Below are positions 3,001 through 61,456 of a stretch of 64,000 bases of DNA, piece by piece. The notes beneath the pieces were generated by a model. The model saw nothing but the letters and a program-made list of their open reading frames with translations, made no database searches and had not been told where the DNA came from. The stretch comes from Cyprinodon diabolis (Eukaryota; Chordata; Actinopteri; Cyprinodontiformes; Cyprinodontidae): the NCBI GenBank assembly GCA_030533445.1, contig CM060068.1, positions 16,893,479 to 16,957,478 of the forward strand, in the 5' to 3' direction. Positions within the stretch are counted from its first letter, which is position 1. Each line of letters begins with the position of its first letter. A program made the translations under genes and the position numbers.

Positions 3001-6000
3001 TGTTTATGCAAGTCCATTCTTCTGTTTGAGAAAATTTTTCTGGTTCTTACTAGCTTTGCTTATTAGCTTTTTCTTTAATATTAGATTTATAACTATGGTG
3101 GAAACTGAATTCAGTTTACTGCAGGAGCTTGGTGGGGATTACAGTCATCATTTAAATCTAAATTAATGTGAAAATAATCTGTCAGCCAAGTGGTCCTCTT
3201 TTCAGTTAAAGAATAATTTTGGGTGGATAGTCCACTCAGGGATGGAACTGTTTAAATCATACCTAAATCTCAATTTTTCCAATACCATATATGGCACCTG
3301 CTATATGATGTTGGTACTAAGTATTTTGTCTAAAGTGTAACATATGGAACTGCACACAATGGGCATAAGTCTGTATGTCATGGGCAACCAGTTTGTACAC
3401 TTTCCTAACTGCATCTTATCTGTCAAGATTATATCATTCCAGATGTCTCAATTTTGTAGGACATACTGGCAATATTTTTAGAGAAATAATTTTCTCAAGC
3501 AGCAATTACAAATAGCTATAGTTAAGTGACTTTGAGAGTTAAAGCTATTAGTTGTACAGTCATAGACTTGACTATTTTACATGCAGAATTAAACTTGTAC
3601 CGCATGTTATTGTGCTCTTGACTTTTCAAATCAAGTGAAATTCTATCAGCATTGAACAGTCTCCCCTTAGGGTAAATTTGCTTGAAAATGTACTGCAAGA
3701 AATATTGAGGATGGTCTGAATTGTTTCCCAATTTCTTCAGGCTTTTCCACTGTATAAGGAAACAGTGATCAGAGGGAATGCTACTTGCCTAAATCCAATG
3801 GAAGCATAACGATTTTCATTTATGTTTCTATTGCATAACAAGGGCCTCCCTTTGACTGTTAAGCATTAGTGTTAACTACTGTACACAACAATAAAGAACA
3901 TGTTGACAAAAGCATGTCAAGTTTGAAAATCTGTTTTTATGTCCGTTTAGGGCTTGTAAGTAAATTGATAGTGACACATTTTGGAAAGTCTTTTGAGACC
4001 CCCTGAGCTGCCAGTCAACTCCCACTTTATTTGCTTTCCTCCTCATTTTGTTCTTCCTCTGAGATGAGTTCTGAGTGTCTCTGACATGAAAGGCCTGTTT
4101 GAAACACCATGTTGCCCTCTGAATGAAAGTAAAAACTTTATATGAAGCCCACACGTCCATGCAGTGACATATTAGAGCAGCAGTGACAGGCAGTCAGTGA
4201 CAGAAACTGAACATGACAGACACAGTAAAATCAAATGCCATCATATCTGTGGCAGGCTTTTCAGTTGAATAGTATGCTGAAAATCCATACTGAACATTTG
4301 ACACTTAGAGATATAAAAATAAAACTCTTAATGTGTTGTGACATTCTTACGCAACAGCCTCTTAAAAAATGGCTAACAATATCTTAAACCATTAAAATAA
4401 AACTTTTACTTTAAGTAGGTAAAAAAAAAAGAACGACACATCCCTACACATTTAAAAAAGGACAAACTGACATATTTTTTTATATATTGACACACCATGC
4501 ATTATGTTAAATGAGGTTTAATTCACCCAGTCCACTAATTAAATTGTTAAACCGTTATTTTTACATTTGTGGAGGTATGCAAATTGGATAGTTTGTTTAT
4601 GGTTAATTTTATTTTTTTTTCTGTTTCAAAATAAAGCAAAGGAAAAAAAGGGTGTTTCTTTAGTTTATTATGATTTAAAAAATAATGAGAAAAACTAAAA
4701 TTCCCCTAATAAAAGGTTAGCCTTTTATTAACGCTTCATATTAAAGGAACTAAATGCAGGAATTTTGAATGAATAAACATTTATGTCCAGTGTTCTATGC
4801 TAATGCTAATGCTAATGAAGCGTTAGCCAAAAAGTATGTTCTGATGGTCTAGTCAAGTGAAACTGGACAAAATCACTGTTAGGAAATCAGCACCCATTTC
4901 ATTTCTATATTTTCTAACTGATGTTACTCCATCAGTGGGGCAAGCAATTGATTGAGTACAATGAGTGATCTAGGCACACAGCAGAAAAAAAAGACAAATT
5001 AGATAGCAGCCACCTCCATGGGGATGATGGAGAAAAATTCCACAGACATTTAAATAATCAGGTAAAGGACCAGCAGGGGAATACTTAGGGTTCCATCCAC
5101 TGCTCTGTCTACTAGGGCATATATATTTCAGCGACATAGCGCCATTCAAGCTCCATCAGACACTGGAGTTTCACAGCTAACATCTCCTTAGGCTGCATGT
5201 AGCTTAAAGCTATTTTCTTACTTAATAATTAAGTTACATATTAAAAATTCCTCCACTTCTTCCCCGTCTTCTAAACTATTCCTCCGCTCTGTCCAAAAAA
5301 AAAAAAAAAAAAACAAGAACAAGAGCGTTTTAGTACCCCCACTCACTCTTGGACACACAGTGTGGAGTTTTATCCATTAAAACAATTAGCCATGCACTAA
5401 GGCAGTTTTGATTTAGTAACTTTAAATTGTTTGAATGCAACCAGCATTGACTTTTAATATCTTTTTTATCTTACTTTACATTATTTTATATGGGTAGTGT
5501 TGTAATATGAAAGCAATAATATATGTATAGTTGTTTTCAATCCGCTAAATTAAACCTGTTAGCAGGTTTTTTTCATTTATTTTGACTGAATACTTGCATG
5601 CAAGTTCTGTCTAAATTAGGTGATTTTAGGATTCAATTTAGCCAGATCACATAGCCAGTTGTAGCATTTATACCAAAAGTAAAAAATTAACAGCCAATCA
5701 GTGTGATCAGACGTACAGTATTGGGTAATCGGTATCATGATTAGTGGCAAAAAAAAAAAAAAAATAAAAAAAATACATTAAGACACAGAAGAAGAGAAAC
5801 ATCAACTTTTTAGCCTTATGGAAGCTAATTTATTTGTTGTGTGTATGCTGTTGTGTTCCAGTTTAGTAGGGTTTTGGGGTACAATGCATGATTTAAAAAG
5901 AATAATAATTTAATTATGATGATGCAGTTCTACTTAAGTTTTCTGATTTTAATTACAAAAAAATAAAATCTTAGAAGATTTCATAAAATAAAACATTGTA

Positions 6001-6330
6001 TCTGTCTCCAAACATTTTACAAATTCATCTGAGCCCATCAATCTAATCTAAGTAATTGCCTTGAGAGAAGGAAATGCTGGAGAGAAACTGAGGACTGTGT
6101 TTGATGAATAATTTGCTTTCAAATTTTTCAATGCCTCCTTTAACTTTTAATGAGATTTAAGTCAGTTCCTACTTCCATCAAGGTTTAGTTTGACAGATAT
6201 TAAGACATAAATATAAGTTGGTAAAAAAAAAAAAGTTAAACTGAAGTAAAGAGATAGAAAGAGAAATAATTTTGATTCAATCTCCTAAACTTGGTTTTGA
6301 TAATGTTATATGGACGAAATGTACTTAATT
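3001..6330. other. Intronic stretch, nothing recognised
   Basis: AT-rich sequence with scattered homopolymers (for example an A tract near 5297-5313) and a short triplicated 'gctaat' near 4800. No coding motif, RNA gene or clear transposon ends were found on either strand. Confidence 0.5.
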
Positions 6331-6331
6331 C

Positions 6332-6334
<3 letters not shown>

Positions 6335-6405
<71 letters not shown>
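6335..6405. repeat. (TA)n microsatellite, about 71 bp
   Basis: Uninterrupted alternating TA. It creates a false open frame of alternating Ile and Tyr on the minus strand. A short purine-rich run with repeated 'gggtaagagat' words follows at 6430-6475. Confidence 0.95.
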
Positions 6406-6407
<2 letters not shown>

Positions 6408-8982
6408 AATTGTTCCCTCAACATAAGGAAAGAGATTGAGGGTAAGGGTAAGAGATAAGACATAAGGGTAAGAGATTGGGTCATACAAATAGAACTAAAG
6501 GAATAAAGAAAAAAATGGCTCATACAAAAGATTTTTGCAAGTCACGTAAAGATCCTTTTTTTTTTCCATCATGCGGTGTCATATTGGCTTTAAGTCAGTC
6601 ATTTCATTCATTGTATCAAGAAGTGGTGTTATATGACAATCAATTAAGAAGAAGTACTCTTGATGTCTGTTGCAATACTTCAGTTTAACATGTCCCTCCT
6701 CACTACCCACATTAGGGCCTCACAAATGTGACAGCATGAATCTTGTCCTTCAAAAAAGAACTCCCACATGCCCCCTTCCTGGACCAGTGAAATATTGAGT
6801 GTGACACGGGAGTAATTGCATGGGAAGTAATCAATTAGACACACAATTGAAGGAGACCTGAGGTCTGTGGGCTGCCAGGCAAGAAGCTCAACTGAATGCT
6901 GGTGACATGCACCAAACCAATCTGACTTGCCTCCTCTGTCAGAATTGCTCTCTAATTTCTTAGTAGTTAGTTGATGAAAAAAAGATATAGGGGTCAGAGG
7001 GAGGCACCAATTGTATGCCCCCTCATTATGCAATCCCTAGTCTGGGGGAAACACACCAAGTTAAATCATAACTTTCACCTTGCAACCTGACAAGTACTTT
7101 CTATGACTCCTTATTGTACTGTTGCCACACAGTAGTAAACTAGAAAATTCACCATATGATCCAACAATCGCGAGGTTCTTGAAGAGTGCGGAAACATTTA
7201 CTATTAGGAAGGGTTTTGTATGGTAAAGAGCCATGCAAACATGACATTACTTGTGTATGGAAAAGCCAATGAATGACAACAATTAGGATATCTATCCAAA
7301 ATATGGTGGAAAGAGAAACGGATAAAGAGATGGAAAACAGACAAAAATAGAAGAGTTAAAGAGAGAGCAGATGGGCTATGAAGAAGTGGATAACGCCTTG
7401 GCATAAAACTCAGGCTTGTGTACATGGAAGCAATGAGAGAAGATCATTCAGCAGATGGGGCCTCAGATTGGATGCTTCATTTTAGACACACATGGTGCAG
7501 GCGTGGTGTAGTTCGAAGAAAAAAATAAAGAATCAACAACACTAAACAAATGTAAAAAAAAAAATAGACGCAGCACACCATTGGGAAATGATGGCGTGGA
7601 ATTAGCAATAAAATATGTAAAATCAGAAGGCTTGTCTGTGTTGCGCTCCTAATTGTGGCTGTTAATATTTTGCAAAGCTGAAATTACAATTTGAAAGCAC
7701 AGAGGCTGTGCAAGGTTCTTATAAATACAGACAGAAGAGCTACACATGTATGCCTGAGCATAAAAGACAACAATGTGGATCAGCATGCATCAAATTGCAA
7801 ATGTCAGCAGGAAGAACTGTTTAACCTTTGTCTCACTTACTCAGACAAAGGAGAGGTACAAGAAAAAATGTATGGTGCATTTTGTTCACATCAAATTATC
7901 ACCACAGGCTTTAGTAATTTTTATTGAGATTTTATGTGACAAGCAGTGACAGTGTAGTGAATAACTGGGAAGAGAGCTAAGAATATGTATGAATTTCAAT
8001 CATTTTTTTAAAGATGAAGATTGAAAACTTGAGAATATATGTTATCACCACTGTTCTTTCGATACCGACAAACAAAAAAGGGCAATAAATCTTAGTATTA
8101 TAACATTTTGTGGATTGCTAGATAAAATGTATAAATAAAATGGTTAATTAAACAAAAAAAAAAATCCACAATAAATCAGGAATAAAGTTGCAAGGGCATT
8201 TTAAGTAGGTGTGATACATCTGTAAAACTTCCAGGATACAGCAACCCACTTAAAATGAATCAGTCAAAATCAAAATAAATCAGTCCTATATAGGACAATA
8301 TCAAAGGGGTATTTGTGTTCAACAGAAGTCATTAGGAATACCAAAATAATCATATGGTCATGAAATCAAAAACTCGTGAGAAGAGTAGAGTAATTTCACA
8401 CATCACCGTATCCATACCATTTGCTGTACTCAGTGAGACACTATAGTGGTGTAATTATTCTGTTGGAGTGCTTTCCCCTGCAGGGAGAAGGTAGCTTGGC
8501 ATTGAAAGAACCTGTAACTTAATGAAGTTACCTGTAACTTAAATTATTTAGGTATTAAATTCAGTTCAATTATCATACAGATAAGTAAAAAGTTAAAGGA
8601 GAGTGCCCGCAGTGTTGGACTTTAAGATGCCTGGTTGAGTCAAAAACACATTTATCTTGTCTTAATTTTCTTAAATCCTTAAGTCAAAGTCCAGGTTAAT
8701 AATACTAATAAGAAACTTATGGCAGCACTTTAAAAGTGCTGGTCAGAGATCTCATTACCAAATATGACCAGCAAAAAATAATTTCACAGGAAAAAAAAAT
8801 TGGACTACAGATAAAAAAAAAAAAAAAAAAAAAAGATTAATTCCACAAAACGGGATAAACATAACTACCAAAAAAGGTGGTACCAATAGTTAAGCATCAG
8901 GGTCGCTGAATTAACATACATATCCCAATTTTCTTTATTATTTGGTAAAAGTAAGAAATGCTTATACCTCTTTTTCCTCATA
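6406..8982. other. Intronic stretch; one block looks unusually complex
   Basis: No gene or transposon end was recognised. The block at about 6680-7040 is less AT-rich and less repetitive than its surroundings, with several homeodomain-like ATTA/TAAT words (for example 'aagtaatcaattag'). It could be a conserved non-coding element of the erbb4 intron, but this is only an impression of composition and needs alignment. Confidence 0.4.
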
Positions 8983-11214: not shown

Positions 11215-11610
11215 CACATATTAAATAAGAAACCAACAACAACCTTGCACAAATGTTCTTTTTTTACTAAATTTTTTAATTATTCTTTTTTTACTATGGA
11301 GCTAGTGATATGTGTCATGTGCCTCACTAATTTAAACAGCTTTACCTTTTGAGCTCGCTTTTTCGAGATTTTGAAAATGTTTATTTCCCTCAGGAGTTTG
11401 TAGAACAACCTGAGAAAGCCTGGGGGTTTTGATGATGCTATTTATGATCCTGTTGTTTTTTTTTACTCTCTAATGGAAAGGACAGAAGAATGATTTCCTT
11501 TTTGGTAAATACCATGTCAGATGTTGGTGTTTCTTTAACTTCTTTCTTTGAAACTTTGAAATAATTAAATTTACACGGAAGAAAGATTTTTGTTATTTGT
11601 TAGGCTGCGG
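10440..11610. other. Intronic stretch; possible conserved block at 10690-11090
   Basis: No gene recognised. The 10690-11090 part has balanced composition and no repeat signature, unlike its surroundings, and keeps an open frame for 117 codons (10707-11060, plus strand) with no family resemblance. I treat that frame as chance and the block as a weak candidate for conserved non-coding sequence. Confidence 0.35.
11181..11214. repeat. (GTTA)n microsatellite
   Basis: About eight tandem copies of the tetranucleotide TTAG. Confidence 0.9.
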
Positions 11611-11612
11611 AA

Positions 11613-11639
11613 CACTGCATGAAAAGTGGGATTTTCGTC
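11613..11639. repeat. Left terminal inverted repeat of composite element
   Basis: 27 bp beginning CACTGCATGAAAAGTGGG. It pairs with 16619-16645, with one mismatch at the 17th base (G here, A in the partner). GAA precedes it at 11610-11612. Confidence 0.9.
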
Positions 11640-11720
11640 AATATGCGGCACTGTAGATTGTCGTGGAACTTCAGGTTAGCGGCAGTTTACGGCAATTTGC
11701 AGGCTTCGCCGAAAACTCCC

Positions 11721-11742
11721 GTAAATTGTCAGAAATTGACGT
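11721..11742. repeat. Left subterminal repeat of composite element
   Basis: 'gtaaattgtcagaaattgac' resembles the right subterminal words at 16511-16536 (inverted) and 16568-16587 (direct). A looser copy, 'gtagattgtcgtggaact', lies at 11653-11670. Such subterminal motifs are transposase binding sites in CACTA elements, so they support the element call. Confidence 0.6.
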
Positions 11743-12099
11743 GGACTTTCTTAGGCAGTGTTCCCCCCATGCCTCCCCCCATGCAATTCTAGGGGAGGCT
11801 TTAACATGTAAATGAAAATGCTGTGAGCTATACAAATGCAAATCAGGGTTGCAGGGGGAGTTTTACCCAAGTGACATTTTTCTAAAAGGTAAGAAAATCT
11901 CTGATACAAAGAGATCAGGCTCAGTATAGACTCTTATATTTTAGCTTGAATTGATTTATTTAATTAAAGTATAGAGACCAAAACAAATCTTTAGCTGACA
12001 GAGCAATACATTTAGAGCAGTAATTATTTTTTTTAAAAATTGCATTTAAGAGAAAAAATAAAATGTTGTCTATCAATATGCTCAATTCACAATTACTTA

Positions 12100-12206
12100 A
12101 GTGGAAAAGTTTCAAGAAATGAGTCTGAGATGATTCACTTTATAACATGGCGCATTATCCTGTTCGAAGTAGCCATGAGAAGATTGGTGCACTGTGGTCA
12201 TAAGGT
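12100..12206 (-). mobile_element. Tc1/mariner fragment inside the composite element
   Basis: 'aatgagtctgagatgattc', 'atggcgcattatcctg', 'gaagtagccatgagaag' and 'actgtggtcataa' closely follow the non-coding strand of a Tc1-like family widespread in teleosts. Only about 100 bp remain, without ends. A piece of what seems to be the opposite end of the same family is at 53160-53440. Confidence 0.6.
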
Positions 12207-13129
12207 CCGGCCAGGTCAAGATCCGCAATTGCAATCGCACCAAACAGGAAAAAGAACGTCGACAAATTCCGGTTCGTCAAATTAAAATATAGCAGCAACA
12301 GATCGGTGACTAGAAATTATAGCACAATTCTTATATATATATAAAAAAAAACTAACACCGTTTATTTAAATGATTGGATCCAAACTATTGGTTATTCACC
12401 AATGAGGAAGCAGATTTCTCATCTCCATCAAAATATTTATTTTATACCGAGGGACTTAAGCTTTAATCAAATCCATTCAAAAGAAACTTCTTATTACAGG
12501 AATGAGAAGAGATGCTGAGTTTGGGAGTAAAGAACAAGTTCATTCAAAAAAAGCAGTTTTGAATTATCCTTATCCCTGTTACAAAAATCTACAAAAATAT
12601 ATATATATATTTGGGCAGAAACTGAACATATGCTGGATGATGGTGGGATTTTTTTAATATGTCATATTAAATTAAGCGTTCACAGGGTTCATTCAGGAAT
12701 GAGTGACTCTAATTTAATGCTATTTTAATGCTATTAGAAATTATTTTAATGCCATCAACAAGAACCATGTACACAAGTTATTAGTGTACATGAAATATGA
12801 AGGAGCTGTAAGCACAGTTCCATGACTCCTGTATGTATGTAAACACACACACACACATATACGTATATATATATCCTCTAGCTTTTTCTCCGCCTGGAGC
12901 TTCCTTTCCGTACATACGGCTTTATGATCAGTTCCACGCAAATTAATAGCGATATAATATATCTGACGAAATTGTTTTTATAAGCATTTTTTATGAAAGA
13001 ATTATAAATACTTCGATAAACATATTTAAATAATTTTAGTGCCAATTAAGGCCTTGATTAAAAAAAAAAATGAATGAATGAATTGTAATAATTTTTAATG
13101 ATCCGCGGAAACCCTGGTTCATCTCGCGC

Positions 13130-14372
13130 ATGCTCTCTACGATCTCCAAGAAACTCAGAGCGGAGCGGTCTGGAGCCACAGCAGAGGATGTATGCTTTGC
13201 TTTGTGCAGGCGGTCTGGAGCGGAGTATGTGGGATTTCGGGGTAAAACTCCTCTTGGACGCGATGGCGACTCTGCAGTCGAACAAGACGAACTCAAAGAA
13301 GAGATGCTAGCGGTAAATATATGTTCGATTACTGCCTGCTAAGCTAAAAGCAGCCTAGCCTTAGCTATGGCTAATAGCAGCCTATCCTAAAGCTACAGCT
13401 AATAGCAGCCTAGCCTAAAGCTACGGCTAATAACAGCCTAGCCTAAAGCTACGGCTAATAGTAGCCTTGCAAGAACAAGCTTTATTAAAGTGTATTTTTT
13501 GTGATTCACAGGAAGCAGTACGCCGTCTTCACAACTCAGAGACTAATTGCAGGCGCTATGAACCGGAGCAAGGGTAAGATTTAAAGAATATGCTTTCATT
13601 CTGCGGTAAAAGGAAATGGATACAGATAGATACCGATCATAGCTGTACATTTTCTTTTCACAGACTACTGTCGCCTCACAATGAGGCGGTGACCTCCTAT
13701 TTGCTCGGAGCCATATCAGCAAGTCCAGATTTGCACGATGTTGATAAAGACGACATTGTGTGTAAGTGACTTGTTTTAATGTTTTCTCCTTCCTTGTTAC
13801 TGTGACTTGCGTTTGATTTTTTATTCATACCACTCTCATTTAATTGTTTTCCAGCTGCCTGTAAGACGTATTTTGAGACGGTACACAGGAGCTTCAGATA
13901 TACGCAGCCTGAGAACACGTTGCGTGGGGAGGCTGCCAAGCAATCTGCTCGGAGTCGGGCTAGAAGAAAGAGGGTAAGACTTTATTTGGTGACTATTTTT
14001 CAGGTGCATTGATAGATGTGTTGTGTCCATACGCAGTGCGCTGATTCATTGTTTTTTTTACAGTTGCTGAAAGCGAGGCAGAGTGTGCTATTAGATGAGG
14101 AAGTGGAACTCTGGAAGTCTGCCACCGTCTACCTCATGTCCGACGAAGGAGATGGCGTCGTTGGCGGAGTCTCTGGATGGATTGTACGGTCGCCGCCATT
14201 TCGTAGGCCGGATCTCACTGAACTCTGTGTTAAGCTGCAGTCCCGGTTAGAAGCGATGCCAAAGTACAGGGCCACGCACAGTAGGCATCTGCACATCGGA
14301 CCTGCCTCGGAGGGAATGCTGCCAGTTACCTCCAACCCCAAGGAAGCAAACGGACCGTTCACGGACTTGTAA
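13130..14372 (+). CDS. C14orf93-like protein carried by a transposon (5 exons)
   Basis: Five exons join in frame: 13130-13312, 13512-13573, 13664-13761, 13855-13973 and 14064-14372 (stop TAA). All four introns are GT-AG with pyrimidine-rich acceptors, and the phases (0, 2, 1, 0) match, giving 256 residues with no internal stop. The product is partly basic near residues 145-160 (several Arg and Lys at the exon 4/5 join) and has a C-terminal block with 'LMSDEGDG', 'WIVRSPPFR' and 'LTELC'. From memory, vertebrate C14orf93 has the same order of motifs: an ACxxYF segment, a basic stretch, LMSDE, a W..R.P.FR motif and LTELC, so I call it homologous. The biochemical role is unknown. The start is the first ATG after an in-frame stop at 13079; its context is weak, so a further 5' exon is possible. 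A polyadenylation signal follows at 14426. The gene lies wholly inside the TIR element and runs against erbb4. Confidence 0.8.
13341..13468. repeat. 28-bp tandem repeat in intron 1 of the carried gene
   Basis: Three full 28-bp units start at 13363, 13391 and 13419, flanked by two partial units. The unit begins AGCTACGGCTAATAACAGCC. Units differ by a few bases. Confidence 0.9.
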
Positions 14373-14425
14373 TTTTTTGATACGCATGTGTTTGGATACG
14401 CGTTGTATATAGTTTTGTGTGTTTT

Positions 14426-14431
14426 AATAAA
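14426..14431 (+). terminator. Polyadenylation signal AATAAA
   Basis: AATAAA lies 54 bases after the stop of the carried C14orf93-like gene, in a T-rich context, at a normal distance for a short 3' UTR. It supports the view that the transcription unit is complete. Confidence 0.7.
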
Positions 14432-14618
14432 GCTCTTTCTTTGTATAAACAGCTTCCTGGCAAATGTTCATTTCCTGTATAAATTCATTCATGTCCTTGA
14501 TCGTAGCCTAATAATTGTGTAGTAGTGTAGGATAACATAAATACACAGCATATGAATGAATAAATATATGAATGAATAAATATATATTCATAAATATATA
14601 TATATATATATATATATA

Positions 14619-16224
14619 CAGTGGGGCAAAAAAGTATTTAGTCAGCCACCGGTAGTGCAAGTTCTCCCACTTAAAAAGATGAGAGAGGCCGGTAATTTTC
14701 ATCATAGATATACCTCAACTATGAGAGACAAAATGAGAAAAAAAAATCCAGAAAATCACATTGTCTGATTTTTAAAGAATTTATTTGCAAAATATGGTGG
14801 AAAATAAGTATTTGGTCAATAACAAAAGTTCATCTCAATACTTTGTTATATACCCTTTATTGGCAATGACAGAGATCAAACGTTTTCTGTAAGTCTTCAC
14901 AAGGTTTTCACACACTGTTGCTGGTATTTTGGCCCATTCCTTCATGCAGATCTCCTCTAGAGCAGTGATGTTCTGGGGCTGTCGCTGGGCAACACGGACT
15001 TTCAACTCCCTCCAAAGATTTTCTATGGGGTTGAGATCTGGAGACTGGCTAGGCCACTCCAGGACCTTGAAATGCTTCTTACGAAGCCACTCCTTCGTTA
15101 CCCGGGCGGTGTGTTTGGGATCATTGTCATGCTGAAAGACCCAGCCACGTTTCATCTTCAATGCCCTTGCTGATGGAAGGAGGTTTTCACTCAAAATTTG
15201 ACGATACATGGCCCCATTCATTCTTTCCTTCACACGGATCAGTCGTCCTGGTCCCTTAGCAGAAAAACAGCCCCAAAGCATGATGTTTCCACCCCCATGC
15301 TTCACTGTAGGTATGGTGTTCTTTGGATGCAACTCAGCATTCTCTCTCCTCCAAACACGACGAGTAGAGTTTTTACCAAAAAGTTCTATTTTGGTTTCAT
15401 CTGACCATAAGATATTCTCCCAGTCATCGTCTGGTTCATCCAAATGCTCTCTAGCAAACTTGAGACGGGCCTTGACATGTACTGGCTTAAGCAGGGGGAC
15501 ACGTCTGGCACTGCAGGATTTGAGTCCCTGGCGGCGTAGTGTGTTACTGATGGTAGCCTTTGTTACTTTGGTCCCAGCTCTCTGCAGGTCATTCACTAGG
15601 TCCCCCCGTGTGGTTCTGGGATTTTTACTCACAGTTCTTGTGATCATTTTGACCCCACGGGGTGAGATCTTGCGTGGAGCCCCAGATCGAGGAAGATTAT
15701 CAGTGGTGTTGTATGTTTTCCATTTTCTAATAATTGATCCCACAGTTGATTTCTTCACACCAAGCTGTTTACCTATTGCAGATTCAGACTTCCCAGCCTG
15801 GTGCAGGTCTATAATTTTGTTTCGGGTGTCCTTTGACAGCTCTCTAGTTTTGGCCATGGTGGAGTTTAGAGTGTGACTGTTTGAGGTTGTGGACAGGTGT
15901 CTTTTATACTGATAACGGGTTCAAACAGGTGCCATTAATGAAGGTAACGAGTGGAGGACAGAGGAGCCTCTTACAGAAGAAGTTACAGGTCTGTGAGAGC
16001 CAGGAATCTTGCTTGGTTGTAACTGACCAAATACTTATTTTCCACCATATTTTGCAAATAAATTCTTTAAAAATCAGACAATGTGATTTTCTGGATTTTT
16101 TTTTTCTCATTTTGTCTCTCATAGTTGAGGTATATCTATGATGAAAATTACCGGCCTCTCTCATCTTTTTAAGTGGGAGAACTTGCACTATTGGTGGCTG
16201 ACTAAATACTTTTTTGCCCCACTG
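14619..16224 (-). mobile_element. Full-length Tc1 transposon, 1606 bp
   Basis: Starts CAGTGGGGCAAAAAAGTATT and ends with its inverted copy, flanked by TA on both sides (14617-14618 and 16225-16226). The terminal inverted repeats run about 200 bp (14619-14820 and 16023-16224) and differ at only a few places: two adjacent bases near the ends and one base in a poly-A run. That near identity, plus an unbroken transposase gene, points to a young insertion. It landed in an AT tract of the composite CACTG element, so it is younger than that element. Orientation is minus, as read from the transposase. Confidence 0.97.
14835..15857 (-). CDS. Tc1-family transposase, DD34E, apparently intact
   Basis: 340 residues, the usual length for fish Tc1 transposases. 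The N-terminal third holds two helix-turn-helix motifs (about residues 8-46, with '[16 protein letters not shown]', and about 68-110), joined by a basic 'PRSGAPRK' segment in the place of the GRPR linker. The catalytic triad is D153 (in WSDET), D244 (in FQHDNDPKH) and E279 (in NPIENLW), with 34 residues between the last two. These are the same positions as in the Sleeping Beauty enzyme, from memory. A glycine-rich '[10 protein letters not shown]' box at 188-196 is also kept. The enzyme would cut and paste the element at TA sites in the nucleus. The start ATG sits just inside the right inverted repeat. There are no stops or frameshifts, so it may be functional; activity cannot be judged from sequence. 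Confidence 0.97.
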
Positions 16225-16266
16225 TATATATATGTAAATTTATATGTAAATATATATATATGCCAA

Positions 16267-16461
16267 CCAATCACGAGCGACTTTACTTGTTTAAAAAGAA
16301 GTGGTTCCGTCCAATACTCAGTAAGAAAATTAAAGCCTGGCGTGGCCACGTGTGGTTTTGCTGCCAATCACGAGCGATTTCACTTGTTTGAGAATAGTGG
16401 TTTCAGCCAATACTGAGTAGGTTATTCAAGCCAGACCTGGCCAGCCGTGCGGGTTTGCTGC
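16267..16461. repeat. Two tandem 97-bp units in composite element
   Basis: 'ccaatcacgagcga' begins at 16267 and again at 16364. The units share 'cttgttt', 'gtggtt', 'ccaatact', 'agcc' and 'tttgctg' in order. The repeat lies between the Tc1 and the right subterminal region, and is part of the composite element. Confidence 0.85.
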
Positions 16462-16510
16462 ATTCATATGCTAATTAGGGCCATTAGTACAGCTGATCGC
16501 TCTCCACATA

Positions 16511-16587
16511 CGTCAGAGTCCGTTTCCGACAATTTGTGGCACGACAAACGCAGACAAGCGCGGGTTGCAAATTGTCGGAAACTGACG
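16511..16587. repeat. Right subterminal inverted motifs of composite element
   Basis: 'gtttccgacaatttg' (16522-16536) and 'caaattgtcggaaactgacg' (16568-16587) are inverted copies of each other, and resemble the left subterminal word at 11721-11742. They lie 58-135 bp inside the right end. Confidence 0.75.
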
Positions 16588-16618
16588 AAAATCAGGGAGA
16601 TCTGCGGGAGTTTACGGG

Positions 16619-16645
16619 GACGAAAATCTCACTTTTCATGCAGTG
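16619..16645. repeat. Right terminal inverted repeat of composite element
   Basis: 27 bp ending CACTTTTCATGCAGTG, the inverted partner of 11613-11639 with one mismatch. GAA follows at 16646-16648, matching the GAA before the left end. Confidence 0.9.
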
Positions 16646-16649
16646 GAAA

Positions 16650-28040: not shown

Positions 28041-29631
28041 AATTAGAATATTTTGAAAAACTTGATTTATTTCAGTAATTGCATTCAAAAAATGTACCTT
28101 GTACATTATATTTATTCATTGCACACAGACTGATGCATTCAAATGTTTATTTCATTATTATTTATTTCATTTTGATGATTTGAAGTGGCAACAAATGAAA
28201 ATCCAAAATTCTGTCTGTCACAAAAGTAGTATATTGTGTAAGGGTTAAATTTTGAAGACACCTGGTGCCACAAACTAATCAGCTGATTAACTCAAAACAC
28301 CTGCAAAGGGCTTTAAATGGTCTCTCAGTCCAGTTCTGAAGCCTACACAAACATGGGGAAGACTTCAGATTTGACAGCTGTCCAAAAGGCGACCATCGAC
28401 ACATTGCACAAGGAGGGAAAGACGCAAAAGGTTATTGCTGAAGAGGCTGGCTGTTCTCAGAGCTCTGTGTCCAAACACATTAATAGAGAGGCAAAGGGAA
28501 GGAAAAACTGTGGTCAGAAAGAGTGTACAAGCGATAGGGATCACCACGCCCTAGTCAAGATTGTGAAAAAAAACCCATTCAAAAATGTGGGGGAGACTCA
28601 CAAGGAGTGGACAGCTGCTGGAGTCAGTGCTTCAAGATCCACCACCAAGAGACGCTTGAAAGACATGGGTTTCAACAGCCGCATACCTCGTGTCCAGCCA
28701 CTGTTGACCAAGAAACAGCGCGAAAAGCGTCTCACCTGGGCTAAGGAAAAAAAGAGCTGGACTGCTGCTGAGTGGTCCAAAGTCATGTTTTCTGACGAAA
28801 GCAAATTTTGCATTTCCTTTGGAAATCGAGGTCCCAGAGTCCGGAGGAAGACAGGAGAGGCACAGGATCCACGTTGCCTGAAGTCTAGTGTAAAGTTTCC
28901 ACCATCAGTGATGGTTTGAGGTGCCATGTCATCTACTGGTGTCGGTCCACTCTGTTTCCTGAGATCCAGGGTCAACGCAGCCGTCTAGCAGCAAGTTTTA
29001 GAGCACTTCATGCTTCTTGCTGCTGACCTGCTCTATGGAGATGGAGATTTCAGGTTCTAACAGGACTTGGCACCTGCACACAGCGCAAAATCTACCCGTG
29101 CCTGGTTTACGGACCATGGTATTTCTGTTCTAAATTGGCCAGCCAACTCCCCTGACCTTAGCCCCATAGAAAATCTGTGGGGTATTGTGAAAAGGAAGAT
29201 GCAGAATGCCAGACCCAAAAACGCAGAAGAGTTGAAGGCCACTATCAGACCAACCTGGGCTCTCATAACACCTGAGCAGTGCCAGAAACTCATCGACTCC
29301 ATGCCACGCCGCATTAATGCAGTAATCGAGGCAAAAGGAGCTCCAACCAAGTATTGAGTATTGTACATGCTCATATTTTTCATTTTCATACTTTTCTGTT
29401 GGCCAACATTTCTAAAAAATATCCCTTTTTTGTATTAGCCTTAAGTAATATTCTAATTTTGTGACACACGGAATTTTGGATTTTCATTTGTTGCCACTTC
29501 AAATCATCAAAATTAAATGAAATAAACATTTGAATGCATCAGTCTGTGTGCAATGAATAAATATAATGTATAACTTACACCTTTTGAATGCAATTACTGA
29601 AATAAATCAAGTTTTTCAAAATATTCTAATT
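28041..29631 (+). mobile_element. Tc1 transposon, about 1.6 kb, disabled by stops
   Basis: The ends read AATTAGAATATTTTGAAAAA and its inverted copy, flanked by TA (28039-28040 and 29632-29633). The inverted repeats extend about 180 bp (28041-28225 and 29456-29631) with few differences. The transposase lies on the plus strand and is full length but broken (next entry). Both ends touch TA microsatellites. Confidence 0.92.
28353..29357 (+). pseudogene. Tc1 transposase, full length, three in-frame stops
   Basis: One reading frame runs from the start (MGKTSDLTAVQK) to the end (KGAPTKY) without any frameshift, but stops occur at 28917-28919 (TGA, at a position usually Trp), 28986-28988 (TAG) and 29058-29060 (TAA, just before QDLAPAH). 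N-terminal helix-turn-helix words such as 'AEEAGCSQSSVSKHI' are clear. The catalytic residues are all present: D at 28794-28796 (FSDES), D at 29064-29066 and E at 29169-29171 (SPIENLW), with 34 residues between the last two. It is a DD34E enzyme from a different Tc1 lineage than the copy at 14.8 kb. As it stands it makes at most a truncated protein. Confidence 0.93.
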
Positions 29632-30630: not shown

Positions 30631-32100
30631 CACTGTTAAAAAAATTAAAGGAACACATTGAAAACACATGAGATCTCAATGGGAGAAAAAATCATGCGAT
30701 TTATTTATACTGATATGGACTGGGGGATGTTTTAGGAACAAAAGGATGCCACATAATTTGATGGAAATGAAATTTATCAACCTACAGAGGGCTGAATTCG
30801 AAGACACCCCAAAAACTACAGAGAAAAAATGATGCGGCAGGCTAGTCTATTTTGCAATAATCCATAATTTGTATGGCGCCCACGTGCGTGTATGCATGCC
30901 TGACAATATCGGGGCATACTCCTAATAAGGCAACGGATGGCGTCCTGGGGTATCTCCTCCCAGATCTGCACTAGGACATAACTGAGCTCCTGGACAGTCT
31001 GAGGTGGAAACTGGTGGCATCGGATGGATCGAAACATAATGTCCCTGTACTATTGGATTTAGGTCAGCCGAGCGTGGGGGCCAATCAATGGTATCAATTC
31101 CTTAATCCTCCAGGAACTTCCTGAGGCCAGGCATTGTCGTGCACCAGGAGGAACCCAGGACCCACTGCACCAGCATAGGGTCTGACAATTGCTGTAAGGA
31201 TTTAATCCCATTACCCAGTGGCAGTGAGGGTGCCATTTTCTAACCTGTATAGGTCTGTGCGTCCCTCCATGGATATGCCTCCCATCACTGACCCACCACC
31301 AAACCGGTCATGCTGAACAATGTTACAGGCAGCATAACATTCTCCACGTCTTCTCCAGACCCTTTCACGTCTTTCACATCTGCTCAGGGTGAACCTGCTC
31401 TCATCTGTGAAAAGCACAGGGTGCCAGTGGCGGACTTGCCAATTCTGGTGTTCTGTGGTAAATGCCAATCTAGCTCCATAGTGCTGGGCAGTGAGCACAG
31501 GCCCACCAGAGGACGTCGGGCACTCAGGCCACCCTCATGAAGTCTGTTTCTGTTTGTTTCGTCAGAGACATTCACACCAGTGGCCTGCTGGAGGTAATTT
31601 TGTAGGGCTCTGGCAGTGCTCCTCCTGCTCCTCCTTGCACAAAGGAGCAGATGGATTGTAGACATTCTACGGCCCTGTCCAGCTCTCCTGGAGTACCTGT
31701 CTGTCTCCTGGAATCTCCTCCATGCTGTTGAGATTGTGCTGGGAGACACAGCAAACCTTCTGGCAATGGCACGTATTGATGTGCCATCCTGGAGGAGGTG
31801 GACTGCCTGTGCAACCTCTGTCCAGGTAGCGCCTCATGCTAACAGTAGTGACAGTGACCCTAGCTCAAACGAGCAGGCGAAAAAATGTCAGTGGCCTCCA
31901 CCTGTAAAACCATTCCGGTTTTGATGGTCATCTCGTTGTTGCCCCTCTAGTGCACCTGTTAACAACAAACACCAAAGCAGCTGAAACTGATTAACAACCC
32001 CCTCTGCTACTTACCTGACCAAATCAATATCCCAGAAGTTTAATTAACTTGATGCTATACTCCGATTAAAAAGTGTTCCTTTAATTTTTTTTGAGTAGTG
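30631..32100 (-). mobile_element. Decayed Tc1-like transposon, about 1.47 kb
   Basis: Starts CACTGTTAAAAAAATTAAAG and ends with the inverted counterpart (CACTACTCAAAAAAAATTAA read inward), flanked by TA on both sides (30629-30630 and 32101-32102). About 40 bp of the ends match well. It belongs to a family abundant in teleosts, recognised from words such as 'gatctcaatggg', 'tatactgatatggactggg' and 'ctacagagggctgaattc'. The transposase on the minus strand is broken. Confidence 0.9.
30838..31749 (-). pseudogene. Broken Tc1-like transposase
   Basis: Minus-strand pieces in order: an N-terminal region with 'MSPSTISTAWRRFQETDRY' (31749 leftwards), the first catalytic Asp in 'LFTDESRF' (about 31403-31405), a glycine-rich 'FGGGSVM' box, 'HDNA' (second Asp, about 31136-31138), 'WPPRSADLNPI' and a C-terminal 'RCLIRSMPRY'. 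Frameshifts separate them. Where the catalytic Glu should follow NPI (31048-31050) the codon is GTA (Val), after which sequence appears deleted, so the enzyme is inactive even apart from the frameshifts. Confidence 0.85.
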
Positions 32101-60483: not shown

Positions 60484-61456
60484 AGGGCTGGGCGATATAG
60501 AAAAAAAGCTTATCGATAAAAATAAATGCATATTGATCGATATCGATAATTATTGAAAAGATTTGAAACCATATTTTATGTGCAGCTCTGCCTGGACTTT
60601 TTATAATATTACTTAATGATTTAATTTTAATAAAAAACACAAACACAGACTTCGAATTAAATCTTTATTTAACCAACTTTTTTAACCATAACAGAATTGT
60701 TTGAAAGAAAAATAACTTAAGAGACCTGGGTTATGTTATTAAATACTGACAAAGAATAAACTAAAGTGACCAGAAAAGTGACCAAAATAAATATAACAAA
60801 TAAATAAATGCCCCCCCGCCGCCGCCCCCGTTTCCTGCTTTAACCTGAGTTATTACTTTGAAGTTTCTGGCCCCTCAGCATTTTTTTCTCAATTGTTAGA
60901 ACTACGTGGGAAACTGCCCAGAACTGAAAATATATATATATATATATTTTCCCGAAATTCCCGAAGATTCCTCGGAGGAGAGTCGCGGCGGGGCCTACAC
61001 AGCTCGTACTCCTGCGGGTGTGAGCGGCTGAGATGATAAAAAAAAAAAAAAAAGTTGGTTTCGTTATCAGACTTCGTTTTCACTGGTTCCCGACACATTT
61101 TACAGATGACTGTGGTTTGTTTTTTGTCCGACTTGCCATGACCGAAATACTGCCAGACTGCCGAACTACGAAAACCCTTCTTTGGAACAATTTCCTCCGC
61201 CTCTCCTGCTGCGACATCTGCATGTGCTCTGTGTTGTGGTTTGAGAGGGCGGCGCTTGGTGACGGCGTGCCTGGGTCCGCGATTGTGATTGGTTGGGAGG
61301 AAGCAGTGACTAGCATAAACATACATGCTAGGCTACAATGAGAAGGAAGGAAAACTGCGTTTCTTTTTTATCGAACTTTTATCGACCCTCTTTTTTTCTA
61401 TTGCGCCACACGTCTATCGATCGATATATATCGTTATTGAATTATCGCCCAGACCT
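60484..61456 (-). mobile_element. Internally deleted hAT-like element with BED finger exon, 973 bp
   Basis: Left end AGGGCTGGGCGATATAG and right end, read inward, AGGTCTGGGCGATAATTC give short inverted ends. ATTCTATTAT occurs directly before (60474-60483) and after (61457-61466). hAT duplications are normally 8 bp, so part of this 10-bp match may be chance. Both ends carry many 'tatcgat' words. The inside keeps a GC-rich minus-strand coding segment for a BED zinc finger and a 'gccgccgcccccg' run (60817-60831). The catalytic part of a transposase is missing. Confidence 0.8.
60960..61230 (-). pseudogene. BED zinc finger remnant of a hAT transposase
   Basis: The minus-strand frame reads 'SSAVWQYFGHGKSD...TTVICKMCREPVKTKSDNETN', a phenylalanine run, then 'YHLSRSHPQEYELC'. 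This is a BED-type finger: the aromatic W..F pair, Cys-x2-Cys (CKMC), and His-x4-His (HLSRSH), genomic about 61155 down to 61015. It resembles the ZBED4-like fingers of animal hAT transposases, which bind transposon DNA. The Phe run is encoded by the A tract at 61038-61052 and replaces the usual short 'LFN' before the first His, so the tract has probably expanded. The frame ends near 60930 in a TA repeat, with no dimerisation or catalytic domain. Confidence 0.75.

Follow-up and report, generated by a model that had tools for sequence, protein, structure and literature searches.

The 64,000-nucleotide stretch of Cyprinodon diabolis DNA analysed here (assembly GCA_030533445.1, contig CM060068.1, positions 16,893,479 to 16,957,478; hereafter, the window) harbours at positions 11613..16645 a non-autonomous element derived by deletion from a fish transposon of the cut-and-paste CACTA/EnSpm (CMC) type, and this element bears most of a gene of the DUF4616 family, related to vertebrate C14orf93. 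A 7.6-kb relative of the element carries a Transposase_21 gene and a DUF4616 gene in divergent orientation, and the window copy is a version that multiplied as a unit, lacks the transposase, has a broken exon 1 and contains a foreign segment, a joint conclusion of high confidence. As the relative shares the ends of the window copy, has a 3-bp duplication and carries Transposase_21 beside DUF4616, the DUF4616 gene is regarded as the accessory, second gene of CACTA elements, and an accessory protein is thereby suggested for a vertebrate element of this kind. A broader proposal, in which human C14orf93 was domesticated from a TnpA-like gene of a CACTA transposon present in hundreds of fish copies, and in which DUF4616-bearing copies were favoured in transposition despite having no transposase, is advanced tentatively, its two parts together falling a little short of an even chance.

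The element is delimited by terminal inverted repeats of 27 bp, a G-type left end at 11613..11639 (+) and an A-type right end at 16619..16645 (-), which match each other in inverted orientation with one mismatch and both open with CACTG; 100 shuffles yielded no such pairing (0 in 100). The trinucleotide GAA is duplicated on either side (11610..11612 and 16646..16648, 3 bp each), and these ends and flanks are as claimed in a preliminary description of this DNA. The inverted subterminal motifs mentioned there stand only in part: one 8-mer does occur three times (shuffle mean 0.014), but internal windows of the element reach higher values (mean 3.1, maximum 13), leaving the motifs weak. The CACTA left end (11613..12204, +) is 95-97% identical to positions 1-303 and 935-1233 of the 7.6-kb copy, which the right end (16225..16645, +) also matches. 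Between them, the transposase gene is absent, and exons 2-5 of the DUF4616 gene are kept.

Four GT-AG introns (13313-13511, 13574-13663, 13762-13854 and 13974-14063) join five plus-strand exons into a chain of 256 codons followed by an AATAAA poly(A) signal (14426..14431, +), just as first described. Exons 2 (13512..13573), 3 (13664..13761), 4 (13855..13973) and 5 (14064..14372, including the stop codon) are delineated by the exon chain and by comparison of copies, and exon 5 in addition by a genome-wide pattern. Residues 59-214 of the predicted 256-residue product match Pfam PF15394 (DUF4616) with an E-value of 4.6e-18 and 66 bits, for a curated cut-off of 27. The similarity to C14orf93 is thus significant, and this match and the sister copies described below support the earlier view of a DNA transposon with CACTG ends bearing a C14orf93-family gene. 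The product covers only profile positions 296-453, and the full-length C14orf93 architecture (1-524) is not attained. A public protein search with the same product returned 95 matches up to an E-value of 10, many of them named C14orf93-like; the organisms named among the matches shown were fish.

The gene had been called intact, which is no longer tenable. Indeed, the exon 1 remnant (13244..13312, +) displays, by comparison with the 7.6-kb copy, a 12-bp in-frame gap beside a 19-bp gap that breaks the canonical frame and puts exon 1 out of register with exon 2, the alignment being poor further upstream. Other family members read ...RLAALESKNCVEETNSKKRRRVHNPKIA-EAVRRLHN, and the related stretch of the window, MATLQSNKTNSKKR, sits in another frame than exon 2. 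The start codon of the 256-codon reading, at 13130, lies within the foreign segment, and the first part of the reading is therefore not the N-terminus of the family. A further transposon, of the Tc1 type, is nested in the element. Even so, the six copies compared all keep the 256-codon reading open, their exons being equally long and their splice sites identical; of the six, only the window copy is altered at positions that are otherwise almost invariant (TVDLMSDE becomes TVYLMSDE, and ETVRRS becomes ETVHRS).

The preliminary description had also suspected a little-known element type in which no transposase was visible. The longer relative, a 7,600-bp copy on contig C10 (locus L039), settles the matter by combining both ends, TAC duplications, and transposase and DUF4616 genes. 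Its transposase frame runs from 5269 down to 1342 (-) and its DUF4616 gene from 5613 to 6932 (+), so that both are arranged head to head with starts 343 bp apart, and the transposase frame matches PF02992 (Transposase_21, tnp2-type) with an E-value of 4.5e-18. Both genes contain stop codons in this copy: longer copies encoding a transposase thus exist, though with stops in the one read. The genes are divergent in all four loci keeping coding parts of both (L039, L040, L042 and L043), among which L039 and L042 were read with ends on both sides. L044, which has kept the first transposase exon but no more than the final 30 bp of DUF4616 exon 5, is again divergent. L045-L047 keep DUF4616 exon 1, and the stretches read there matched no transposase.

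Proteins of other fish led to the same transposase. Several DUF4616 gene models of fish, 14 among the 115 sequences inspected for such fusions (out of 143 proteins), were recognized by eye to begin with a Cys-rich stretch (CEHC..QYFDHKKRY..GVWEKK). When this N-terminal region was searched among longer proteins, three matches were retrieved, namely P0097 (Paramisgurnus), a 940-residue transposase matching PF02992 at 8.1e-25, P0098 (Aulostomus), a 518-residue model that fuses Cys-rich transposase-type residues to DUF4616, and P0096 (Anabarilius), whose locus number, DPX16_1403, is next to that of a DUF4616 protein, DPX16_1402, from an equally long contig. P0097 gave 53 matches in the Cyprinodon diabolis genome, 12 of which were at 26-31% to other families. 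These matches, together with the PF02992 match of L039, rule out a little-known element type without transposase; the element belongs instead to CACTA/EnSpm.

The element belongs to a family with hundreds of copies in the genome. Genome-wide counts allowing up to 3 mismatches, with reversed patterns as controls, gave 699 + 693 = 1,392 matches for the 27-bp end and 328 + 332 = 660 for a 30-bp pattern of DUF4616 exon 5, both reversed controls giving 0 + 0; the exon-5 matches thus come near half of the end matches (696). First-look candidates numbered 1,707 for DUF4616 and 177 for the transposase, and the excess of DUF4616 rests on such candidates, beside the 660 exon-5 matches. At least five sister copies of the derivative, none with the Tc1 insert, were retrieved by a DNA search that scored part of its candidates. 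The copies of the window, C23, C10, C18, C2 and C13 are 92-97% identical and occupy six different insertion sites. The 3-bp duplications match in all eight copies read at both ends: GAA, AAA, TGA, AAG, TAG and TAC in the six sister copies, TCA in one further copy, and TAC in the 7.6-kb copy. The derivative has therefore multiplied as a unit, and the window copy has received a Tc1 transposon.

Sites were listed for the first 100 places per pattern, all exact, and their pairing was analysed on contigs C1 to part of C3. Among the matches listed, 29 exact inverted end pairs were found there, which shows that the ends do recur in pairs elsewhere, and 18 of them enclose an exact exon-5 site. The left and right ends mostly differ by a single base, G on the left and A on the right (T instead in 2 of the 29 pairs), from which the orientation of a copy can be read. 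In the range covered by both lists, 45 exact exon-5 sites lie on C1-C3: 25 of them are followed, 492-790 bp downstream, by an exact right end, always of the A type, and for 8 of the remaining 20 an exact left end of the G type was listed within 8 kb. With its hundreds of copies, the Cyprinodon diabolis genome offers a setting to study how an accessory gene is retained while the transposase is lost in derivatives.

Two known groups of elements are relevant for comparison. According to PMC8978399, plant CACTA elements combine a transposase gene with a second gene and produce 3-bp duplications, and PMC1636069 reports that maize Spm encodes TnpA and TnpD, both required, from a single alternatively spliced unit. 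CAC..GTG ends with 3-bp duplications are consistent with EnSpm according to PMC12730594. The fish element resembles plant CACTA/En-Spm (CMC) elements by its CACT-type ends, its 3-bp duplications, its Transposase_21 gene and the presence of a second gene, and differs from them in that this second gene is DUF4616, divergent across 343 bp, whereas maize Spm is one spliced unit. The animal TRC elements, such as SmTRC1, also have a Transposase_21 protein and spliced transcripts, but they are characterized in PMC1636069 by a CCC core and 2-bp repeats. A TRC-type identity of the window element is thus ruled out by its CACTG ends and 3-bp duplication.

As for the function of the second gene, an accessory factor of the element is its best reading, and this part of the preliminary description probably holds, apart from the little-known element type invoked there. 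The chance that the DUF4616 protein acts in the manner of plant TnpA, which is the second protein of CACTA elements, is put at about even. A structure model built from 47 sequences (mean predicted local distance difference test score of 82) displays a long N-terminal helix, with a predicted coiled coil at 29-75, and a confident globular part at about 90-270; the coiled-coil part is encoded in exon 1, and the window copy is devoid of it. In the mechanism proposed, the protein would dimerize via this modelled N-terminal coiled coil, may bind subterminal DNA of the element, and might either help the transposase to pair the ends or keep the element promoter unsilenced. Transposase supplied by rarer full copies would then move the derivatives in trans.

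Several observations weigh against the interpretation defended here. Two structure searches with the predicted fold retrieved no convincing solved relative. No intact two-gene copy was found among the loci read, and 12 of the 45 exact exon-5 sites on C1-C3 have no exact end nearby among the matches listed. One-strand fusions of transposase exons with DUF4616 occur in models of other fish (P0009, P0098, P0117 and others), among them Perca, Aulostomus and Gasterosteus, and are not explained by the divergent gene order; either the gene order differs in other subfamilies, or exons of separate copies have been combined in the models. Private substitutions in the six sister copies are close to neutral in their ratio of nonsynonymous (N) to synonymous (S) changes, with 29 N and 15 S in exons 2-5 (expected ratio 2.48) and 10 N and 4 S in exon 1 (expected ratio 2.67). 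When the C13 copy is left out, coding columns carry private substitutions at no lower rate (48 in 770 x 5) than non-coding ones (130 in 2,636 x 5), which argues against strong recent constraint.

The relation to vertebrates rests on the C14orf93 family itself. Vertebrate C14orf93 is also called RTFC or 4931414P19Rik, and the human member is an orphan with links to the biology of the thyroid and of microglia. A sequence taken to be that of the human protein fits the whole PF15394 profile (1-524, 1,014 bits), and PF15394 is therefore the C14orf93 family. A DUF4616 profile of 20 proteins, compared in a set of four sequences, matched this presumed human sequence at 5.6e-36 over residues 285-482, and the amphioxus proteins P0125, which includes a BTB domain, and P0129 at 4.6e-80 and 7e-77, respectively. 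C14orf93 thus shares with the element protein a homologous C-terminal domain of about 200 residues, but possesses an N-terminal half of its own, only residues 285-482 being aligned to the profile. DUF4616 also stands behind other leaders, which include BTB in amphioxus and zinc-finger-gene-like sequences in several fish. The latter (P0100, P0101, P0050, P0110, P0118 and P0120), which resemble the leaders of fish zinc-finger genes, are similar in Sander lucioperca and S. vitreus and in Epinephelus moara and Plectropomus leopardus. This looks like repeated reuse by hosts, and possibly like repeated domestication.

Both a capture of the host domain and a domestication of the element gene had been envisaged initially. 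The passage from element to host, vertebrate C14orf93 being a domesticated copy of the CACTA accessory gene, is favoured, with a probability slightly better than even. The reverse, in which an ancestral CACTA element captured host C14orf93 and kept it as its second gene, seems rather unlikely, even though capture does occur in this element family, the window derivative containing a foreign 1-kb segment. In a tree that places the window gene beside Fundulus P0004 and stickleback P0117, human C14orf93 and the two amphioxus proteins stand apart from the fish proteins, on one side, as capture would suggest; the human branch, at 2.34 changes per column, is very long, however, and the root is only a midpoint, so that the placement of the human protein is unsure. 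Capture is further disfavoured by the fact that the C-terminal domain alone is common to both, that the amphioxus proteins score far above the human one with the profile, and that DUF4616 lies behind varied leaders, as expected of a mobile domain. Literature searches, which did not cover Repbase, yielded no publication connecting C14orf93 or DUF4616 with a transposon. The main text of PMC10163356 and PMC5322522 contains no word starting with 'transpos', and in the parts of these functional studies drawn on here, domain searches gave no informative domain for C14orf93. If its domain derives from the second protein of a CACTA element, binding to nuclear DNA or chromatin becomes a directly testable hypothesis.

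DUF4616 could instead be a mere passenger, kept since deletions happen to take the left half of the element. This is improbable, although the near-neutral private changes of the sister copies would suit it, as would those of exon 5. In all 22 loci where exon 5 was found, of which L027-L038 were chosen by best protein score with a bias to conserved copies, private changes amount to 56 N and 2 stops (58 together) for 22 S, against an expected neutral ratio of 2.25. Shared substitutions are different, with 7 N for 9 S (Fisher p 0.039), and this contrast fits, modestly, selection during transposition followed by drift after insertion. The six sister copies show no insertions or deletions (indels) in 770 coding columns for 53 in 2,636 non-coding columns, the latter including AT-rich repeats prone to indels; C13 supplies 20 of the 53, and without it 9.6 coding indels would be expected. 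No stop was seen in the six copies for 3.5 expected (p 0.03). The number of exon-5 matches relative to end matches and the conservation of the domain from amphioxus to teleosts also speak against a passenger. The initial suggestion that the gene was under selection recently is hence weakly sustained for the replicating lineage, and not for the window copy. Lastly, that the window gene is a functional host gene merely located in a transposon is very hard to believe and is rejected on copy number and adjoining element ends: its reading is open and its splice sites are conserved in six copies, but the 660 exon-5 matches show that it is not single-copy, the exact ones on C1-C3 mostly adjoin element ends, exon 1 is out of frame, and the window copy alone is altered at nearly invariant positions.

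The foreign segment (12204..13243), absent from the 7.6-kb copy, is 94-97% identical to a stretch of contig C22 (L014, 410-3465), around which no element ends were found with up to 4 mismatches in the 3.8 kb read. It looks like a transduplication-like capture common to the sister copies; the C13 copy is devoid of part of it. The nested Tc1-type transposon (14619..16224, -; 1.6 kb), overlooked in the preliminary description, lies between the DUF4616 gene and the right end of the element. It has TA flanks and an open transposase frame of 340 codons from 15857 down to 14835. Among the matches listed in the genome, 34 copies of it are 98-99% identical, which suggests recent Tc1 activity. Elsewhere in the window, open frames at 28317-28919 (+) and 31384-31833 (-) resemble, by eye, partial Tc1/mariner-type transposases, and one at 60889-61332 (-) has, again by eye, the look of a BED-type zinc finger such as hAT-derived genes contain.

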